Part shown: positions 34,018 to 59,366 of the stretch, one piece after another
How the letters are laid out: each line of letters begins with the position of its first letter
Numbering within the stretch: position 1 is the stretch's first letter
Assembly: GCF_021165755.1 (NCBI RefSeq)
Contig: NZ_CP088936.1
Location: 248,001-312,000 of the forward strand
Reading direction: 5' to 3'
Source: Borrelia sp. RT5S
GTDB lineage: Bacteria; Spirochaetota; Spirochaetia; Borreliales; Borreliaceae
DNA: 64,000 nucleotides
Position numbers and translations under genes: made by a program
Notes under the pieces: generated by a model
The model's input: only the letters and a program-made list of their open reading frames with translations
Databases searched by the model: none
Told to the model about the DNA's origin: nothing

Positions 34018-35496
34018 TCAAGAATCACTCTCATCAAAATCGATGATATCCTCATACATACTCCCAATGCTACTACTATCAAAGGAACTAGTTATTCTTA
34101 TTTCAATGGATTTAGAGATATTAGTATCTAAATCTCTCGCAGCAACATTTAAAATACCACTTTCATCTAAACTAAAAAGTATCTCTATCCTTGGAATACC
34201 CTTTAACGCTTTTTGTATATTACTAAAAAAAAACCTACCTATGGAATAATTTAAAGAAGACTTTCCATATTCACCCTGTAGCACATGTATCTCAATCTCT
34301 TCTTGATAATCATTCATTGTTGTAAAAATTTTTCTCTCACAGACTGGCAACGGAGTATTTCTCTTAATTAAAGTAAAAAATCCATCATTGCGAGTCTCAA
34401 TTCCAAGGGAATAAGGTGTTATATCTTTAAAATTGATGAGAGTGCTTTCATTTAATAAACTAAAGGCCTGAATACTCGCCCCCATTGAAACAACCTCGTC
34501 CTGATTTAGAGAGTCTAAAACCTCAATTTCAGGAAAAGCATTCTCCAACTTCTGCTTGACCAGAGGAATCCTGGTTGAACCTCCCGAAAGCACTATTTTT
34601 GAAACACTCTCAGGGTTAATTCCCGAATCAGAAATGCAATCATTTGTAAGATTAACGGTCCTATTTATGAACTGGTCAATCATTGCCTCAAAATCTTTCC
34701 TTGTAAGCTTATAATCTAAATGTTTACCATCAAGAAAAGGTAACACAATACTATCTTCATCCATAACAGATAAATTCTTTTTAGCTTCCTCGATTTTATC
34801 TCTTATCTGCTCAAGAAGAACAAAATCATCCAAATCAATACTGGGGTATTTTTCTCTAAAATTACTTAAAACACCCTTTTCTATTTCCTCATTAAAACTA
34901 TTACCTCCAAGTTTATTCTCACCCTTGGTCGAGAGGACAGTATAAGCATCGCCTCGCTTTTCCAAAAGAGCAACATCAAAAGTACCACCACCAAGATCAT
35001 AAACGAGAAAAAAACCCTCTACTTGCTTTTCAAAAGCGTAAGATATAGCCGCCGCTGTTGGTTCATTAAGGATTGCTCTACAGCGTAATCCTGCAAGACT
35101 TGCAGCCTCCACTATGCCTCTTCTTTGCACCTCAGCGAAATAAGCAGGGACCGTTATTACAGCATCACTTATTTCTTCTTCCAAAAATTTCTCAGCGTTC
35201 TTCTTGATATGCAAGAGCAAATAAGAAGCAATATCCTCAGCCCTATATAAATCCTCTCCTACCCTATAAGAAATCCCAGTACCTATATTGACTTTAAAAT
35301 TGTAAAAAGTTTTATCCGGATTTACCAAGATCTGACATTTAGCACAATTACCTACAACAACACCAGAATCTGTAAAAGAGACAACAGAAGGTGTCATTCT
35401 CTCGCCCCTATCATTTAATATCACTCTAGCGCCACTGTCAAAATAGGACACCACAGTATTTGTAGTGCCAAAATCTATCCCTATCCATCTTTTCAT
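34018..35496 (-). CDS. Hsp70-family chaperone lacking the lid
   Basis: A DnaK-like ATPase of 492 residues (BB0264 type), about 145 shorter than DnaK. The nucleotide-binding domain is intact: GIDFGTTNTVVSYF, AVITVPAYF, NEPTAAAISYAFE, VYDLGGGTFDVALLE and VLSGGSTRIPLVK. The beta substrate-binding domain is present (IEIHVLQGEYGKSS, IEILFSLDESGILNVAARD), but the protein ends soon after in an acidic DFDESDS, so the helical lid is missing. It is coupled by a 1-nt overlap (TAATG) to the coiled-coil gene at the distal end of the motility operon. A role in assembling flagellar or envelope proteins is inference. Confidence 0.88.
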   Translation of the reverse strand: MKRWIGIDFGTTNTVVSYFDSGARVILNDRGERMTPSVVSFTDSGVVVGNCAKCQILVNPDKTFYNFKVNIGTGISYRVGEDLYRAEDIASYLLLHIKKNAEKFLEEEISDAVITVPAYFAEVQRRGIVEAASLAGLRCRAILNEPTAAAISYAFEKQVEGFFLVYDLGGGTFDVALLEKRGDAYTVLSTKGENKLGGNSFNEEIEKGVLSNFREKYPSIDLDDFVLLEQIRDKIEEAKKNLSVMDEDSIVLPFLDGKHLDYKLTRKDFEAMIDQFINRTVNLTNDCISDSGINPESVSKIVLSGGSTRIPLVKQKLENAFPEIEVLDSLNQDEVVSMGASIQAFSLLNESTLINFKDITPYSLGIETRNDGFFTLIKRNTPLPVCERKIFTTMNDYQEEIEIHVLQGEYGKSSLNYSIGRFFFSNIQKALKGIPRIEILFSLDESGILNVAARDLDTNISKSIEIRITSSFDSSSIGSMYEDIIDFDESDS

Positions 35497-35993
35497 TAAC
35501 TACCCCTATGAATCGAAATAATCAACTCAATTTCACCCAAATCTAGCTTCAACTTCTTAGAAATAATTTCCAAAGACATCCCTTGTTCATAGAGTGAAAT
35601 CACCTGCTGCCGTATATCATACCCTTCCCTTATTATATTTTTCTCAATAGTAGGTATTGAATAATCCAAATTATTCTTATAAACACTAGAATCATTTCTA
35701 ATTCCAAAATCATTATTCCCCATTGAAATTGAATGAGGATTAAATCCTGATAACCTGTGATCAAGTATTTCTATTCTCTCATCAACCTCTTTAATTATTC
35801 TATTTAAACTCTCAATTTTTATTTCAATGATATTTATATTACGATCAGTGGCCTGATTAATCTCAATAATAGTTTTATCTACCTCACTCCTAAATTTCCT
35901 GAGTATGCTATTAGACTTTATTTTCAAGCCAATATAAACATGAAAATATATGAAAACAAAACAAATCAAAACAAAACAAAACAAAATAAACAT
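35496..35993 (-). CDS. Membrane-anchored coiled-coil protein with C-terminal HTH-like segment
   Basis: A 165-residue protein (BB0265 type), function unknown. Residues 2-25 are a membrane helix encoded by a TTTTG pentamer tract. Residues about 30-85 form a coiled coil (INIIEIKIESLNRIIKEVDE). After a variable linker, the C-terminus IRQQVISLYEQGMSLEIISK plus KLKLDLGEIELIISIH looks like the small HTH-like domain found at the end of some Firmicute and Thermotoga motility-operon proteins (DUF6115/DUF2802-like; from memory). It lies between the BB0266-type gene (15 nt upstream) and the lidless Hsp70. Confidence 0.65.
   Translation of the reverse strand: MFILFCFVLICFVFIYFHVYIGLKIKSNSILRKFRSEVDKTIIEINQATDRNINIIEIKIESLNRIIKEVDERIEILDHRLSGFNPHSISMGNNDFGIRNDSSVYKNNLDYSIPTIEKNIIREGYDIRQQVISLYEQGMSLEIISKKLKLDLGEIELIISIHRGS
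35953..35987. repeat. Pentanucleotide tract (AAAAC, 7 units, 2 imperfect)
   Basis: Seven consecutive pentamers: AAAAC twice, AAATC, AAAAC three times, then AAAAT. Read on the minus strand it is TTTTG-rich and begins 6 nt after the first base of the BB0265-type start codon. A change of one unit would shift the reading frame of that gene. Confidence 0.85.
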
Positions 35994-38247: not shown

Positions 38248-38778
38248 CTACTCCTTCCTGTTAATCAAGGTTTTAATAGCTTTAGCGACAATTTTTGGAT
38301 CATTGGCTTCAAGATATGAAAGTTGACTTGATAGTTTATCGCTAAACTGCATGTTACCACTAGGCCTGTTATTACTATGCTCTACATTATATTTCTCAAT
38401 CTCTTCCACAAACTGAAAGTCACCGCCACTCTCCCGTTTCTCATCAAGAAAGTCACTACCACTCTCACGCTTCTCATCAACAGGAACACTGTTGGACAAA
38501 GAACTCATCTCAACTACACCAGTTTCATACTTTCCGCCCTTGTCATGATCATCATTCCCCTTACTACTAACTAGTGCATCTTTAAAAAGATCACATAAAT
38601 ACTTTTTGTATATAAACTCTATTAAAATCCCAATAAAGAAAAAAAATACAAATTGAACAAATGCTCTAAACAATATTGTAAAAAAATACACTCGGGCAAG
38701 CAGGCCAAAGATAACAGAAACAACAAACGCAGCCGTACTAAATAATAAGACATATCTAATTTCTCTACCGAACAACAT
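38248..38778 (-). CDS. Membrane protein with FliF-like C-terminal tail
   Basis: A 176-residue protein (BB0268 type) from ATG 38778, chosen because AAAGG lies just before it and it follows the flhG stop by one base; an ATG six codons earlier has no ribosome site. Two membrane helices (about 9-30 and 32-55) are followed by a charged, probably unfolded region with two copies of DEKRESG(S/G)DF (101-110 and 112-121). The last 20 residues read NDPKIVAKAIKTLINRKE, sharing PxxVAKxI(R/K)TxI with the FliF tail in this window. In FliF that tail binds FliG, so this protein may also bind FliG (inference). Confidence 0.72.
   Translation of the reverse strand: MLFGREIRYVLLFSTAAFVVSVIFGLLARVYFFTILFRAFVQFVFFFFIGILIEFIYKKYLCDLFKDALVSSKGNDDHDKGGKYETGVVEMSSLSNSVPVDEKRESGSDFLDEKRESGGDFQFVEEIEKYNVEHSNNRPSGNMQFSDKLSSQLSYLEANDPKIVAKAIKTLINRKE
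38413..38478 (-). repeat. 33-bp tandem repeat, two copies, within the BB0268-type gene
   Basis: Two imperfect 33-nt units (38446-38478 and 38413-38445) each encode DEKRESG, S or G, DF and one more residue. Most differences are synonymous. Copy number may vary between strains. Confidence 0.75.
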
Positions 38779-38779
38779 A

Positions 38780-39670
38780 TCACCTTTCCATACCAAAAAA
38801 CTTAGATATAAAGCCTATAACCCCCCTTCTCTTCTTACTATCCAGAGAAACCTCTTCAAGGGTAGCCACAATAGAATCAAGACAATAACTAGCCCTACTG
38901 TTAGGAGTTAACAAGATAAAAGGCCTCTGTTTGAAAACAGAATTTCTAATGTTCTGGTCTTCGTAAACATATCCCAAATAATCAATATTTAAATTTAAAA
39001 ACTGACTTGATATATCAATAACTTTCTTAGCAACTACCTTGCCCTCACTTACATTAGCAACCCTGTTAACAACAAGCCTTAAATTCTTTAAATTTTCCAT
39101 CCTGTGAGCTAAAACCTTGATGATACCATAAGCATCCGTTATAGAAGTAGGCTCTGGGGTCGTAATAATAACTACATCATCACTAGAAAACAAAAATGAA
39201 ATTACCTGTCTTGAAATCCCTGCACTGGTATCTATGATAACTATATCATACTCATAAACTTTTAATAACTCTTTTATAAACTGACTCATCTCAGAATCTG
39301 AAAGATCTAAAAGTTCCGTTGTTCCAGAAGCACCCGCTAAAAGATCAATATTATATTCTGTCTTTGTTATTACTTCTTTAATATCTCTACCCTGCATAAT
39401 CATGTGATAAATATTGTACTTTGGTATAACTCCAAGTAAAATATTGACATTAGCCATCCCAATGTCGGCATCAAAAATTAAAACCTTTTTTCCAAGATTT
39501 GAATACTTAAGGGCGAGTCCCACAGCAATATTGCTCTTACCAACTCCACCCTTACCGCTAGTAATAGCAATAAATCGAGTTCTACTATTTTGAATTTTAT
39601 CATCAACAACAAAATTAGCCTTACTATTCAATCTCATAATATCTCTTAAACTTTGAGCCTGATCTTCCAT
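38780..39670 (-). CDS. flhG: FlhG/YlxH-type MinD-like ATPase
   Basis: ParA/MinD-family ATPase of 296 residues that, with FlhF, sets the number and position of flagella. The deviant Walker A is SGKGGVGKSNIAVGLALKY (about 34-52); FDADIGMANVNILLGV and VIIDTSAGIS complete the nucleotide site. The N-terminal DQAQSLRDIMRLN matches the FlhF-activating DQAxxLR helix of FlhG. The C-terminus ends in a basic, hydrophobic segment (GVIGFISKFFGMER), a likely membrane-targeting helix. It follows flhF by 12 bp, with GAGGAT 8 nt before the ATG. Confidence 0.93.
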   Translation of the reverse strand: MEDQAQSLRDIMRLNSKANFVVDDKIQNSRTRFIAITSGKGGVGKSNIAVGLALKYSNLGKKVLIFDADIGMANVNILLGVIPKYNIYHMIMQGRDIKEVITKTEYNIDLLAGASGTTELLDLSDSEMSQFIKELLKVYEYDIVIIDTSAGISRQVISFLFSSDDVVIITTPEPTSITDAYGIIKVLAHRMENLKNLRLVVNRVANVSEGKVVAKKVIDISSQFLNLNIDYLGYVYEDQNIRNSVFKQRPFILLTPNSRASYCLDSIVATLEEVSLDSKKRRGVIGFISKFFGMER

Positions 39671-56609: not shown

Positions 56610-57653
56610 CTAAACAAGTACATCTTCTTCACCTCCTCTAGAAATTACTATTTCACCCTGTTCTTCCAATTTTCTAATCAAAGAAACGATCTTCTGTTGA
56701 GATTCTTCCACATCCTTACGCCTAGTGGGCCCCAAAAATTCCATATCTTCCTTAAGCATTCCAGCAGCTCTCTTAGACATGTTTTTAAAAATCTTCTCCT
56801 GCACAGGCACATCAACAGATTTTAAAGCCTTTGCCAATTCCTGCCCATCTATTTCCCTTAAAACCCTCTGTATTGACCTATCATCAAGAAGAACAATATC
56901 TTCAAATACAAACATCTTCTTCTTTATCTCCTCCGCAAGCTCAGGATCCTCCTCCTCAAGAGATTCAATAATAAATTTCTCTGTCTTCCTATCCGCCATA
57001 TTAATTATCTCAACAACATTATCAACCCCACCAGCTGAGGTATAATCTTCTGAGGATAAAGAAGCCAGCTTTTTCTCAAGAACCCTCTCAACTTCTCTTA
57101 CCACTTCAGGAGAAGTTCTATCCATCAACGCGATTCTTCTTGCAACATTAGTCTGGATTTCAGTAGGAAGACTTGACAAAATAAACGAAGCTTTTTGGGG
57201 ATCAAGATACGAAAGTATTAAAGCAATCGTTTGCGGATGTTCCTGCTGTATGAAATTTAAAATATTAGCAGGATCAGCTCGCCTAATAAACTCAAAAGGT
57301 CTTGATTGTAAAGCAGAACCCAAATTATTAATAATATCTACAGCCTTCTGTGTACCAAGAGATTTCTCAAGAAGCTCCCTAGCATAATCTATACCACCCT
57401 TTTGAATAAACTCTTGGGCCATCATCAATTCTTTAAATTCCAAAAGAACGCTATCCTTAAGTTCAGAGGTAATAGTATCAAGCTTTGCTATCTCAAAAGT
57501 TAAAGATTCTATCTCTTCCTGAGAGAGATACTTAAACACCCTAGATGAAATCTCAGAACCTATTGAAACCAACAAAATAGCCGCTTTCTGTTTCCCCGTT
57601 AAAGTAGATATATCAAGTTCTTCTTTTTCACTTCTCTCTTCCATAAACCTCAT
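56610..57653 (-). CDS. fliG: Flagellar switch protein FliG
   Basis: C-ring torque protein of 347 residues (344 if the second ATG, codon 4, is used; GAGG stands just before that one). N-terminal domain LTGKQKAAILLVSIGSEISS binds FliF; the middle EHPQTIALILSYLDP motif and the C-terminal torque helix with charged residues (MFVFEDIVLLDDRSIQRVLR) are intact. Borrelia is known to carry a second FliG elsewhere; this copy, in the operon, is FliG2 by position. Confidence 0.95.
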   Translation of the reverse strand: MRFMEERSEKEELDISTLTGKQKAAILLVSIGSEISSRVFKYLSQEEIESLTFEIAKLDTITSELKDSVLLEFKELMMAQEFIQKGGIDYARELLEKSLGTQKAVDIINNLGSALQSRPFEFIRRADPANILNFIQQEHPQTIALILSYLDPQKASFILSSLPTEIQTNVARRIALMDRTSPEVVREVERVLEKKLASLSSEDYTSAGGVDNVVEIINMADRKTEKFIIESLEEEDPELAEEIKKKMFVFEDIVLLDDRSIQRVLREIDGQELAKALKSVDVPVQEKIFKNMSKRAAGMLKEDMEFLGPTRRKDVEESQQKIVSLIRKLEEQGEIVISRGGEEDVLV

Positions 57654-57659
57654 TGCCCT

Positions 57660-59366
57660 TTATACATTCTTAAAAATCCACGTTCTAATTAGTTTAGCAA
57701 CATCCTCTGGCTTCTCTCTCGCCAACAGTTCCGCATTATTCTGTAGCTCATCGCCCTCTCTAAGTCCGCCAACAACATCATCAACTCCAATATCATCTCC
57801 ATCCATTAATGCCTGCTGTCGTCTTAAATGAGCCTGTTTTGCAAATTCTTCTTCTCGAAGACGCCTTCTCCTCTCAAGTTCTCTAGAAACAACAAAGAAA
57901 ACCGTAAAGATTACTATCAATAATGCAATTATCACACTTAGTATATACAAAAAATACTTAAAATTTTCATTAGCAAAGTAGTCCTCATCTATTTTTCTAA
58001 ATTCACTCAATCTATCAAATGCAATATTCCTAACCGTAATAGAATCACCCCTTTCGGGTTTATATTCAAAAGAACTCTGTAAAACATCTGTAATATTTTT
58101 CAAAGATTCATCGGAAATAGGCTTATATTCTCTTTTACGAATACCATTCTCTATTACAAAATTCCCAGATTTATCATAAACAAAATCCCAAATGCCATCC
58201 ACAAAAATACCAAGAGAAACTCCCGCAACCCTAGCAGGCTCTTTCTCATTTAAAGATTTCTTCTCATTAAGAGCAACATTCTTTGTCTCCTTAAACTCAT
58301 TCGACTTGCCAATAATATCACTTAAATCCTGATACTCAGGCGGAGTATTACCCTCCTGCCCAGGCGGCCCCCATGGACTATAACCCTGTCCCTGATACTC
58401 CCTTTTATGCACCTGGGAAGAGATCACAGTAGAATCGCTAATTTTTCTTGTATTATAAGAAACTTTTGGATCCTGAGGCTGAAGCTCAATAGGAGAATAC
58501 TCTTTAGACTCCGTAGTCTGACGTGAAGTGTCCAACTTCACATTAACCCTTGCGACCATAAACCTATCAACAGACAAAACCCTACTTAATGCAAAATCAA
58601 TTTCATCCCTTAACATAGATTCATACTTTAATTTAAGTTTCCTTTCCTTTTCTGCTAAATCAATTCTATCAACTCCATCCAAATTGGAAAAATCATTTAA
58701 TATATTCCCCTTATTGTCAACAATAGCAATGTTATCTGATTCAAGTCCCTCAACAGCATACTGAATCAACTTAACAAGTCCCTCTACCTTCTTACGGTTA
58801 GTAACAATATCTGAACCAGGCTTGGGAGTAATTCTAACAGAAGCCTTAACTGCTTCCTGTGCTTCCTTAAAAAGAGCTTTCTCAGGCATTACAAGACTAA
58901 TGCTAACAGCATCAACATCATCAAGAGCAACAATATGTTGCTCTACAGCCCTCGTAATTGATCTTCTAAGATTAATGTTTCTTTCAAAATCCGTAATGGT
59001 CCATCTATCGATATCAAAAAGAGACCAAGGGTCCATATGAACAGGTACAAGCTCCTCCCTAACAAGAATTGCCCTCATCCTCTTAGATATACCTTCATCT
59101 GTCAGGTAAATCTTTCCGTCAGCAGTAATAGTATACGCAACACCCTCCCTATCAAGTCTTTGAACTATTCTATCTAACAAATATTGATCTTTAATCCCAA
59201 CGCCAAAAAGAGCAACACTCTGAGCCTTAGTAGAAAAACCCACCAAAAAAATGAATGCAAAAATTACAAATAAAGCAATAACTCCAAAGGCTATCCTTTG
59301 AATTACGCTGGCTTTTCTAAAAACCGTTCCCAAAGATGCAAAAAAATTAGTAACAAAATTGCCCAA
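57660..59366 (-). CDS. fliF: Flagellar MS-ring protein FliF
   Basis: Inner-membrane ring protein of 568 residues on which the motor is built. Membrane helices lie at about 22-42 and 445-467, with the ring-building motifs and a disordered loop rich in Pro/Gln/Gly (SPWGPPGQEGNTPPEYQD) between. The cytoplasmic tail ends EKPEDVAKLIRTWIFKNV, the FliG-binding helix. Start is TTG, 8 nt after AAGGAGC. Confidence 0.97.
   Translation of the reverse strand: MGNFVTNFFASLGTVFRKASVIQRIAFGVIALFVIFAFIFLVGFSTKAQSVALFGVGIKDQYLLDRIVQRLDREGVAYTITADGKIYLTDEGISKRMRAILVREELVPVHMDPWSLFDIDRWTITDFERNINLRRSITRAVEQHIVALDDVDAVSISLVMPEKALFKEAQEAVKASVRITPKPGSDIVTNRKKVEGLVKLIQYAVEGLESDNIAIVDNKGNILNDFSNLDGVDRIDLAEKERKLKLKYESMLRDEIDFALSRVLSVDRFMVARVNVKLDTSRQTTESKEYSPIELQPQDPKVSYNTRKISDSTVISSQVHKREYQGQGYSPWGPPGQEGNTPPEYQDLSDIIGKSNEFKETKNVALNEKKSLNEKEPARVAGVSLGIFVDGIWDFVYDKSGNFVIENGIRKREYKPISDESLKNITDVLQSSFEYKPERGDSITVRNIAFDRLSEFRKIDEDYFANENFKYFLYILSVIIALLIVIFTVFFVVSRELERRRRLREEEFAKQAHLRRQQALMDGDDIGVDDVVGGLREGDELQNNAELLAREKPEDVAKLIRTWIFKNV

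Follow-up and report, generated by a model that had tools for sequence, protein, structure and literature searches.

The gene at 38248..38778 on the minus strand of the window, the 64-kb stretch of Borrelia sp. RT5S DNA analysed here, encodes FlgV, a small membrane protein known from the flagellar motor of bacteria. As judged by sequence comparison, its C-terminal tail resembles the FliG-docking tail of FliF at the level of whole families, and this resemblance holds in two phyla separately. While the protein itself is already known, this FliF-like reading of its tail appears to be unreported within the searchable literature. The reading that we prefer, to which we give a little less than an even chance, is that FlgV is an auxiliary clamp whose FliF-like tail would sit either on the FliG N-domain or on the subring that FliF and FliG form together.

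The flgV gene and its product

The window carries the Borrelia flgB flagellar superoperon on its minus strand, and the features of flgV and of its neighbours are as follows:

38248..38778, minus: flgV (BB0268 homologue), 176 aa, to which no Pfam/NCBIfam model matches
38780..39670, minus: flhG, the upstream neighbour of flgV, in the same order in loci L031-L036
36338..38245, minus: fapA (Jag_N + FapA_N + FapA), the downstream neighbour of flgV
38560..38772, minus: N-terminal hairpin of two membrane helices, residues 3-73 (pLDDT mostly >85 in a single-sequence AF2 model)
38415..38480, minus: 33-bp tandem duplication in the disordered FlgV linker (DEKRESG-type repeat)
38302..38349, minus: predicted helix 144-159, just N-terminal to the motif and putative counterpart of helix 1 of the FliF tail
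38251..38301, minus: C-terminal motif DPKIVAKAIKTLINRKE, residues 160-176, FliF-like helix

The start codon of flgV is the ATG at 38778, one base past the flhG stop codon, and a ribosome site of the GGAAAGGTG type is present. The product has two N-terminal TM helices, an Arg in the second of them (Arg38, invariant in alignment A1) and a conserved C-terminal peptide past a disordered linker, and its gene lies in the flagellar superoperon between flhG and fapA/fliA, all of which are the features of type 1 FlgV. The initial annotation had sought to explain the place beside flhG by a second membrane anchor for FliG; this place is simply that of the ordinary flhF-flhG-flgV-(fliA)-fapA order, which is found in loci L031-L036 and in the Bacillota loci and is also reported in PMC11607428. 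The linker around the 33-bp duplication is modelled by single-sequence AF2 with pLDDT mostly <55, and the published B. burgdorferi FlgV is shorter than the FlgV with this duplication.

No Pfam or NCBIfam model matched FlgV in any lineage tried. The PDB holds no FlgV chain, and a search of it with the FlgV profile returned chance-level matches only. Borrelia-type FliF has been solved (12dr, 12ds, 12dt, 12du, 12dw and 12eq; 269 chains in six entries), and these entries contain no FlgV chain. Further along the superoperon, 35496-35993 (minus) encodes a protein of 165 aa that combines a single TM helix with a coiled stretch and has a helix-turn-helix at its C-terminus. Its matches to DUF6115 (26.9 bits, cut-off 27) and DUF2802 (E of 0.0019) are weak, and the gene probably corresponds to the superoperon's "TM+HTH" gene, with a product of the FipA/SwrB/FlgW kind.

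Conservation of the C-terminal motif

The FlgV profile matches 125 of 149 spirochaete genomes, and in the spirochaete FlgV sequences that were read the tail motif is retained as [E/D]P-x-x-[hydrophobic]-A-x-A-[I/V]-[R/K]-T-x-[L/M]. The register of the tails was set by the A-x-x-[ILV] pattern, so that the 100% conservation at those columns is partly by construction; as an independent check, 46 divergent FlgVs were aligned with MAFFT, and nearly invariant columns were confined to A165 and A167, both in the tail. Many spirochaete FlgVs outside the Borrelia/Treponema-like genomes (L105, L108, L119, L134 etc.) carry a short G-[K/D]-[H/Y]-I... stretch followed by [N/Y]EP; this stretch upstream of the motif has a strand-like look and no counterpart in FliF.

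A sample of Bacillota was reached via a ferredoxin bait, which yielded Clostridium genomes as the centre of the sample, and 28 of its 299 genomes match the FlgV profile at E <= 1e-4. Genomes of Clostridium sensu stricto gave no convincing FlgV, whereas other genomes of the same phylum yielded matches. Nineteen of the 28 matches are short 2TM proteins encoded directly upstream of fliA, most of them also near fapA, and the check for the motif in homologues found the FliF-like tail in 17 of these 19. The initial annotation would have been refuted by a motif that homologues do not conserve, which is not the case in either spirochaetes or Bacillota. The tail is absent from two FlgV-like 2TM proteins encoded directly upstream of fliA, L307 (genome G467) and L313 (genome G420), whose genomes have normal FliF tails. 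A Bacillota FlgV tail (LERVINDDPERVAEIVKKMGYDG) and the FliF tail of its own genome (VENVAKEQPDDIAQLLRTWLIEE) align without gaps across both tail helices. The genome G121, which has FlgV and no FliF, was considered as a natural test and dropped, as its contig ends beside fliG.

Comparison with the FliF tail

Two further features of the window, both on the minus strand, enter the comparison:

57663..57713, minus: C-terminal tail of FliF, KPEDVAKLIRTWIFKNV, taken as the reference FliG-docking helix; the FliF fragment from T. maritima in 5tdy aligns with it
56610..57653, minus: FliG2, the canonical FliG

The FlgV product ends in DPKIVAKAIKTLINRKE, and that of the FliF gene (57660-59366, minus) ends in KPEDVAKLIRTWIFKNV. 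The initial annotation had stated that these two tails share PxxVAKxI(R/K)TxI, and both were found as quoted. Against a proteome background drawn from 40 stretches of the chromosome, FliF is the top match to the FlgV tail among ~850 C-terminal 20-mers (BLOSUM 30), and FlgV is the second-best match to the FliF tail. However, 284 of 359,976 tail pairs score at least as high as the FlgV/FliF pair (P ~8e-4), and thus the pair in this one genome, a modest match by sequence, proves little alone. A PSSM built from non-Borrelia FlgV tails was scanned over 243,896 13-mers; apart from FlgV itself, its top match is Borrelia FliF (19.2 bits, next 16.0). With one built from non-Borrelia FliF tails, only FliF itself and a small ORF outrank FlgV, which comes third among 875 tails.

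Profile-profile comparison was carried out against 248 alignment windows from seven flagellar families. For the spirochaete FlgV tail, the FliF tail ranks first of the 248 with a score of 23.9, and the best non-FliF window scores 15.5. For the Bacillota FlgV tail, FliF also ranks first, scoring 20.4 when its window is taken from the mixed control alignment and 23.4 when Bacillota FliF tails are used, the best non-FliF window being at 17.2. The FliF tail thus scores above every FlhG, FlhF, FapA, FliG, FliE and FliA window, and FliG2 windows are among the next-best matches. In HMM searches, a combined FlgV-tail model finds FliF at 10.1 bits, whereas FliF-tail models miss FlgV and the Bacillota FlgV-tail model misses Borrelia FliF; the likeness is therefore limited in strength, since the searches in the reverse direction fail.

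Single-sequence AF2 models predict helices 144-159 and 161-174 in the FlgV tail with a break at Asp160, and helices 528-551 and 553-567 in the FliF tail with a break at Lys552, so that in both proteins the predicted break is the residue directly preceding the motif Pro. Models of this kind count as weak evidence; the two are nonetheless concordant. In Borrelia, helix 144-159 is a helix by prediction only; a clear correspondence in sequence to the first FliF tail helix is seen only in Bacillota FlgV.

While FlgV has the Pro-led C-terminal helix with the A, I/L, R and hydrophobic pattern, it departs from FliF at several positions. Trp occupies position 11 in 86 of 86 FliF rows and in 0 of 124 FlgV rows (one FliF and three FlgV loci are counted twice). 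The residue before the Pro (position 0) is acidic (Asp/Glu) or otherwise polar in FlgV vs. Arg/His/Lys in FliF, position 3 is acidic in FliF and mostly non-acidic in FlgV, and position 7 is Ala in spirochaete FlgV vs. Leu in FliF. The motif lies 2-13 residues (mostly 4-6) from the C-terminus in FlgV and 3-6 in FliF. Because the Trp is missing, other positions differ and L307 and L313 are tailless, FlgV is better described as having a FliF-like helix than a FliF tail.

Proposed role and alternative explanations

In B. burgdorferi, FlgV was assigned to a ring density at the MS/C-ring junction that had formerly been attributed to FliG2, and a C-terminally GFP-tagged FlgV still localises (PMC11607428). 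Loss of FlgV impairs filament assembly and, in B. burgdorferi, also infection. In H. pylori, the cytoplasmic parts of FlgV and FliF and the FliG N-domain are close to one another and share a plane, with 21-fold vs. 39-fold symmetry (PMC10655999), and FlgV of C. jejuni co-precipitates FliF. FlgV is distributed over spirochaetes, many Bacillota and Campylobacterota. The N-domain of FliG is the docking site of the FliF tail, which wraps the first domain of FliG, while the second domain of FliG completes the first domain of the neighbouring subunit. Structures from Salmonella suggest that FliF:FliG need not be 1:1, and the C ring of B. burgdorferi has 46 units.

We propose that FlgV, a 2TM motor protein, surrounds the MS ring, and that its flexible linker carries a C-terminal helix of the same build as the FliF tail, with a helix-Pro-helix that is best seen in Bacillota. 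The tail helix may dock on the FliG N-domain or on a subring formed jointly by the FliF tail and the FliG N-domain. FlgV could thereby steady the MS/C-ring junction as an auxiliary clamp, probably a sub-stoichiometric one, and the steadied junction may help filament assembly. The conservation of the tail, its likeness to FliF above the control windows and the helix-break-helix come from the present analysis, and the location of FlgV and the filament defect come from the published studies; from these we infer that the resemblance reflects binding, with FliG as partner, and that FlgV serves as a clamp whose binding aids filament assembly. That FlgV binds FliG in some form seems more probable than not, and for a FliF-like docking of its tail the odds are about even. 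As the tail likeness holds at the family level in both phyla, docking at the FliG N-domain is plausible on sequence grounds, and FliG2 would be the most likely partner if the FlgV motif works as it does in FliF. A broader version, which strikes us as unlikely, makes FlgV a second and widespread occupant of the FliF-type site on FliG; the tails of a sub-stoichiometric membrane ring would fill or cap the FliG N-domains left by FliF and so fit the MS ring to a larger C ring, such as the 46-fold one of B. burgdorferi or the 39-fold one of H. pylori.

The shared residues could also be a convergence on a D/E-P-E-x-x-A helix start, since D/E/N/S/T-P-E is a common helix N-cap, and an amphipathic FlgV tail might then recruit another cytoplasmic factor, e.g., FlhF, FlhG, FapA or an export component. 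This explanation, doubtful but a serious contender, agrees with the adjoining genes, which encode FlhF, FlhG and FapA, with the lack in FlgV tails of the Trp that is invariant in FliF, and with the suggestion of the discoverers of FlgV that its C-terminal peptide tethers factors (PMC11607428). However, the FliF tail outscores the windows of all of these neighbours in the profile comparison, and the common A, I/V, R/K, T and terminal position exceed what an N-cap accounts for. The missing Trp is also compatible with a tail that packs on FliG outside the FliF groove, e.g., as an added helix on its armadillo-like repeats, possibly bridging adjacent subunits. Such packing would suit a FliG whose domains are already wrapped by FliF and completed by a neighbour; the Bacillota tails DPERAAEIIRKM may resemble armadillo-type FliG/MgtE helices, and the FliG2 windows follow FliF among the profile matches. 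Yet it is the FliF tail, not the FliG repeats, that is the top match by a clear margin, and we consider this packing quite unlikely.

Two further explanations fare worse. The initial annotation had related the motif to the two FliGs of Borrelia, with FlgV as a second membrane anchor for one of them, which we take as an anchor dedicated to the extra paralogue, FliG1. The RT5S genome does have two FliGs, but the motif persists where there is one: all 16 of the Bacillota genomes with the motif that were tested have one full FliG (two show a second, marginal match only), as do G135, G154 and G189, three tested genomes of one spirochaete genus with the tail, and the tail is equally conserved in G073 and G141, which have one FliG only. 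As a general rule, this explanation is largely refuted by the single-FliG genomes, and we find it barely credible. An essential role as an anchor is also unlikely for FlgV in general, because basal bodies in the published flgV deletion are normal in number and otherwise normal in structure (PMC11607428), and FliG attachment therefore does not need FlgV.

It is likewise very improbable that FlgV is an RNA chaperone, as its former assignment to Hfq implied, with the basic tail helix contacting RNA. In vitro annealing and strand displacement were reported in 2026 (PMC13285594), so that the question of RNA binding is not fully closed; by contrast, co-immunoprecipitation gave no RNA enrichment and the protein has no Sm fold (PMC11607428), and the conservation of FlgV is phylum-wide and alongside flagellar genes. 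The Hfq annotation itself was rejected here, as no Hfq model in Pfam/NCBIfam matched up to E=1 and the predicted structure is a helical membrane hairpin.

The FliF-like reading offers one concrete candidate partner, the FliG N-domain, for the C-terminal peptide. If true, FliG would have two membrane-bound partners with related helices, with consequences for how the motor fits together MS and C rings that differ in symmetry.

Comparison with known systems

With the FliF tail, as seen in 5tdy and in the Salmonella C-ring structures, FlgV has in common a Pro-led helix, P-x-x-h-A-x-x-h-[R/K]-x-x, close to the C-terminus of the membrane protein, and in Bacillota FlgV the preceding helix is also alike. 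FlgV differs from FliF in having neither the Trp nor the ring-building domains, in the acidic or polar instead of basic residue before the Pro and, in spirochaetes, in Ala for Leu at position 7. The type 2 FlgV of Helicobacter and Campylobacter (PMC10655999), compared here by its published description, is likewise a 2TM protein encoded between flhG and fliA, and its ring at the MS/C junction is coplanar with the cytoplasmic part of FliF and the FliG N-domain, whereas the protein is only 104-118 aa long. With type 1 FlgV (BB0268; Zamba-Campero et al. 2024, PMC11607428), the RT5S protein shares two TM helices, the second-helix Arg, a polar disordered linker, the C-terminal peptide and the locus between flhG and fapA/fliA; the architecture is the same, and the RT5S linker is longer, with the 33-bp duplication.
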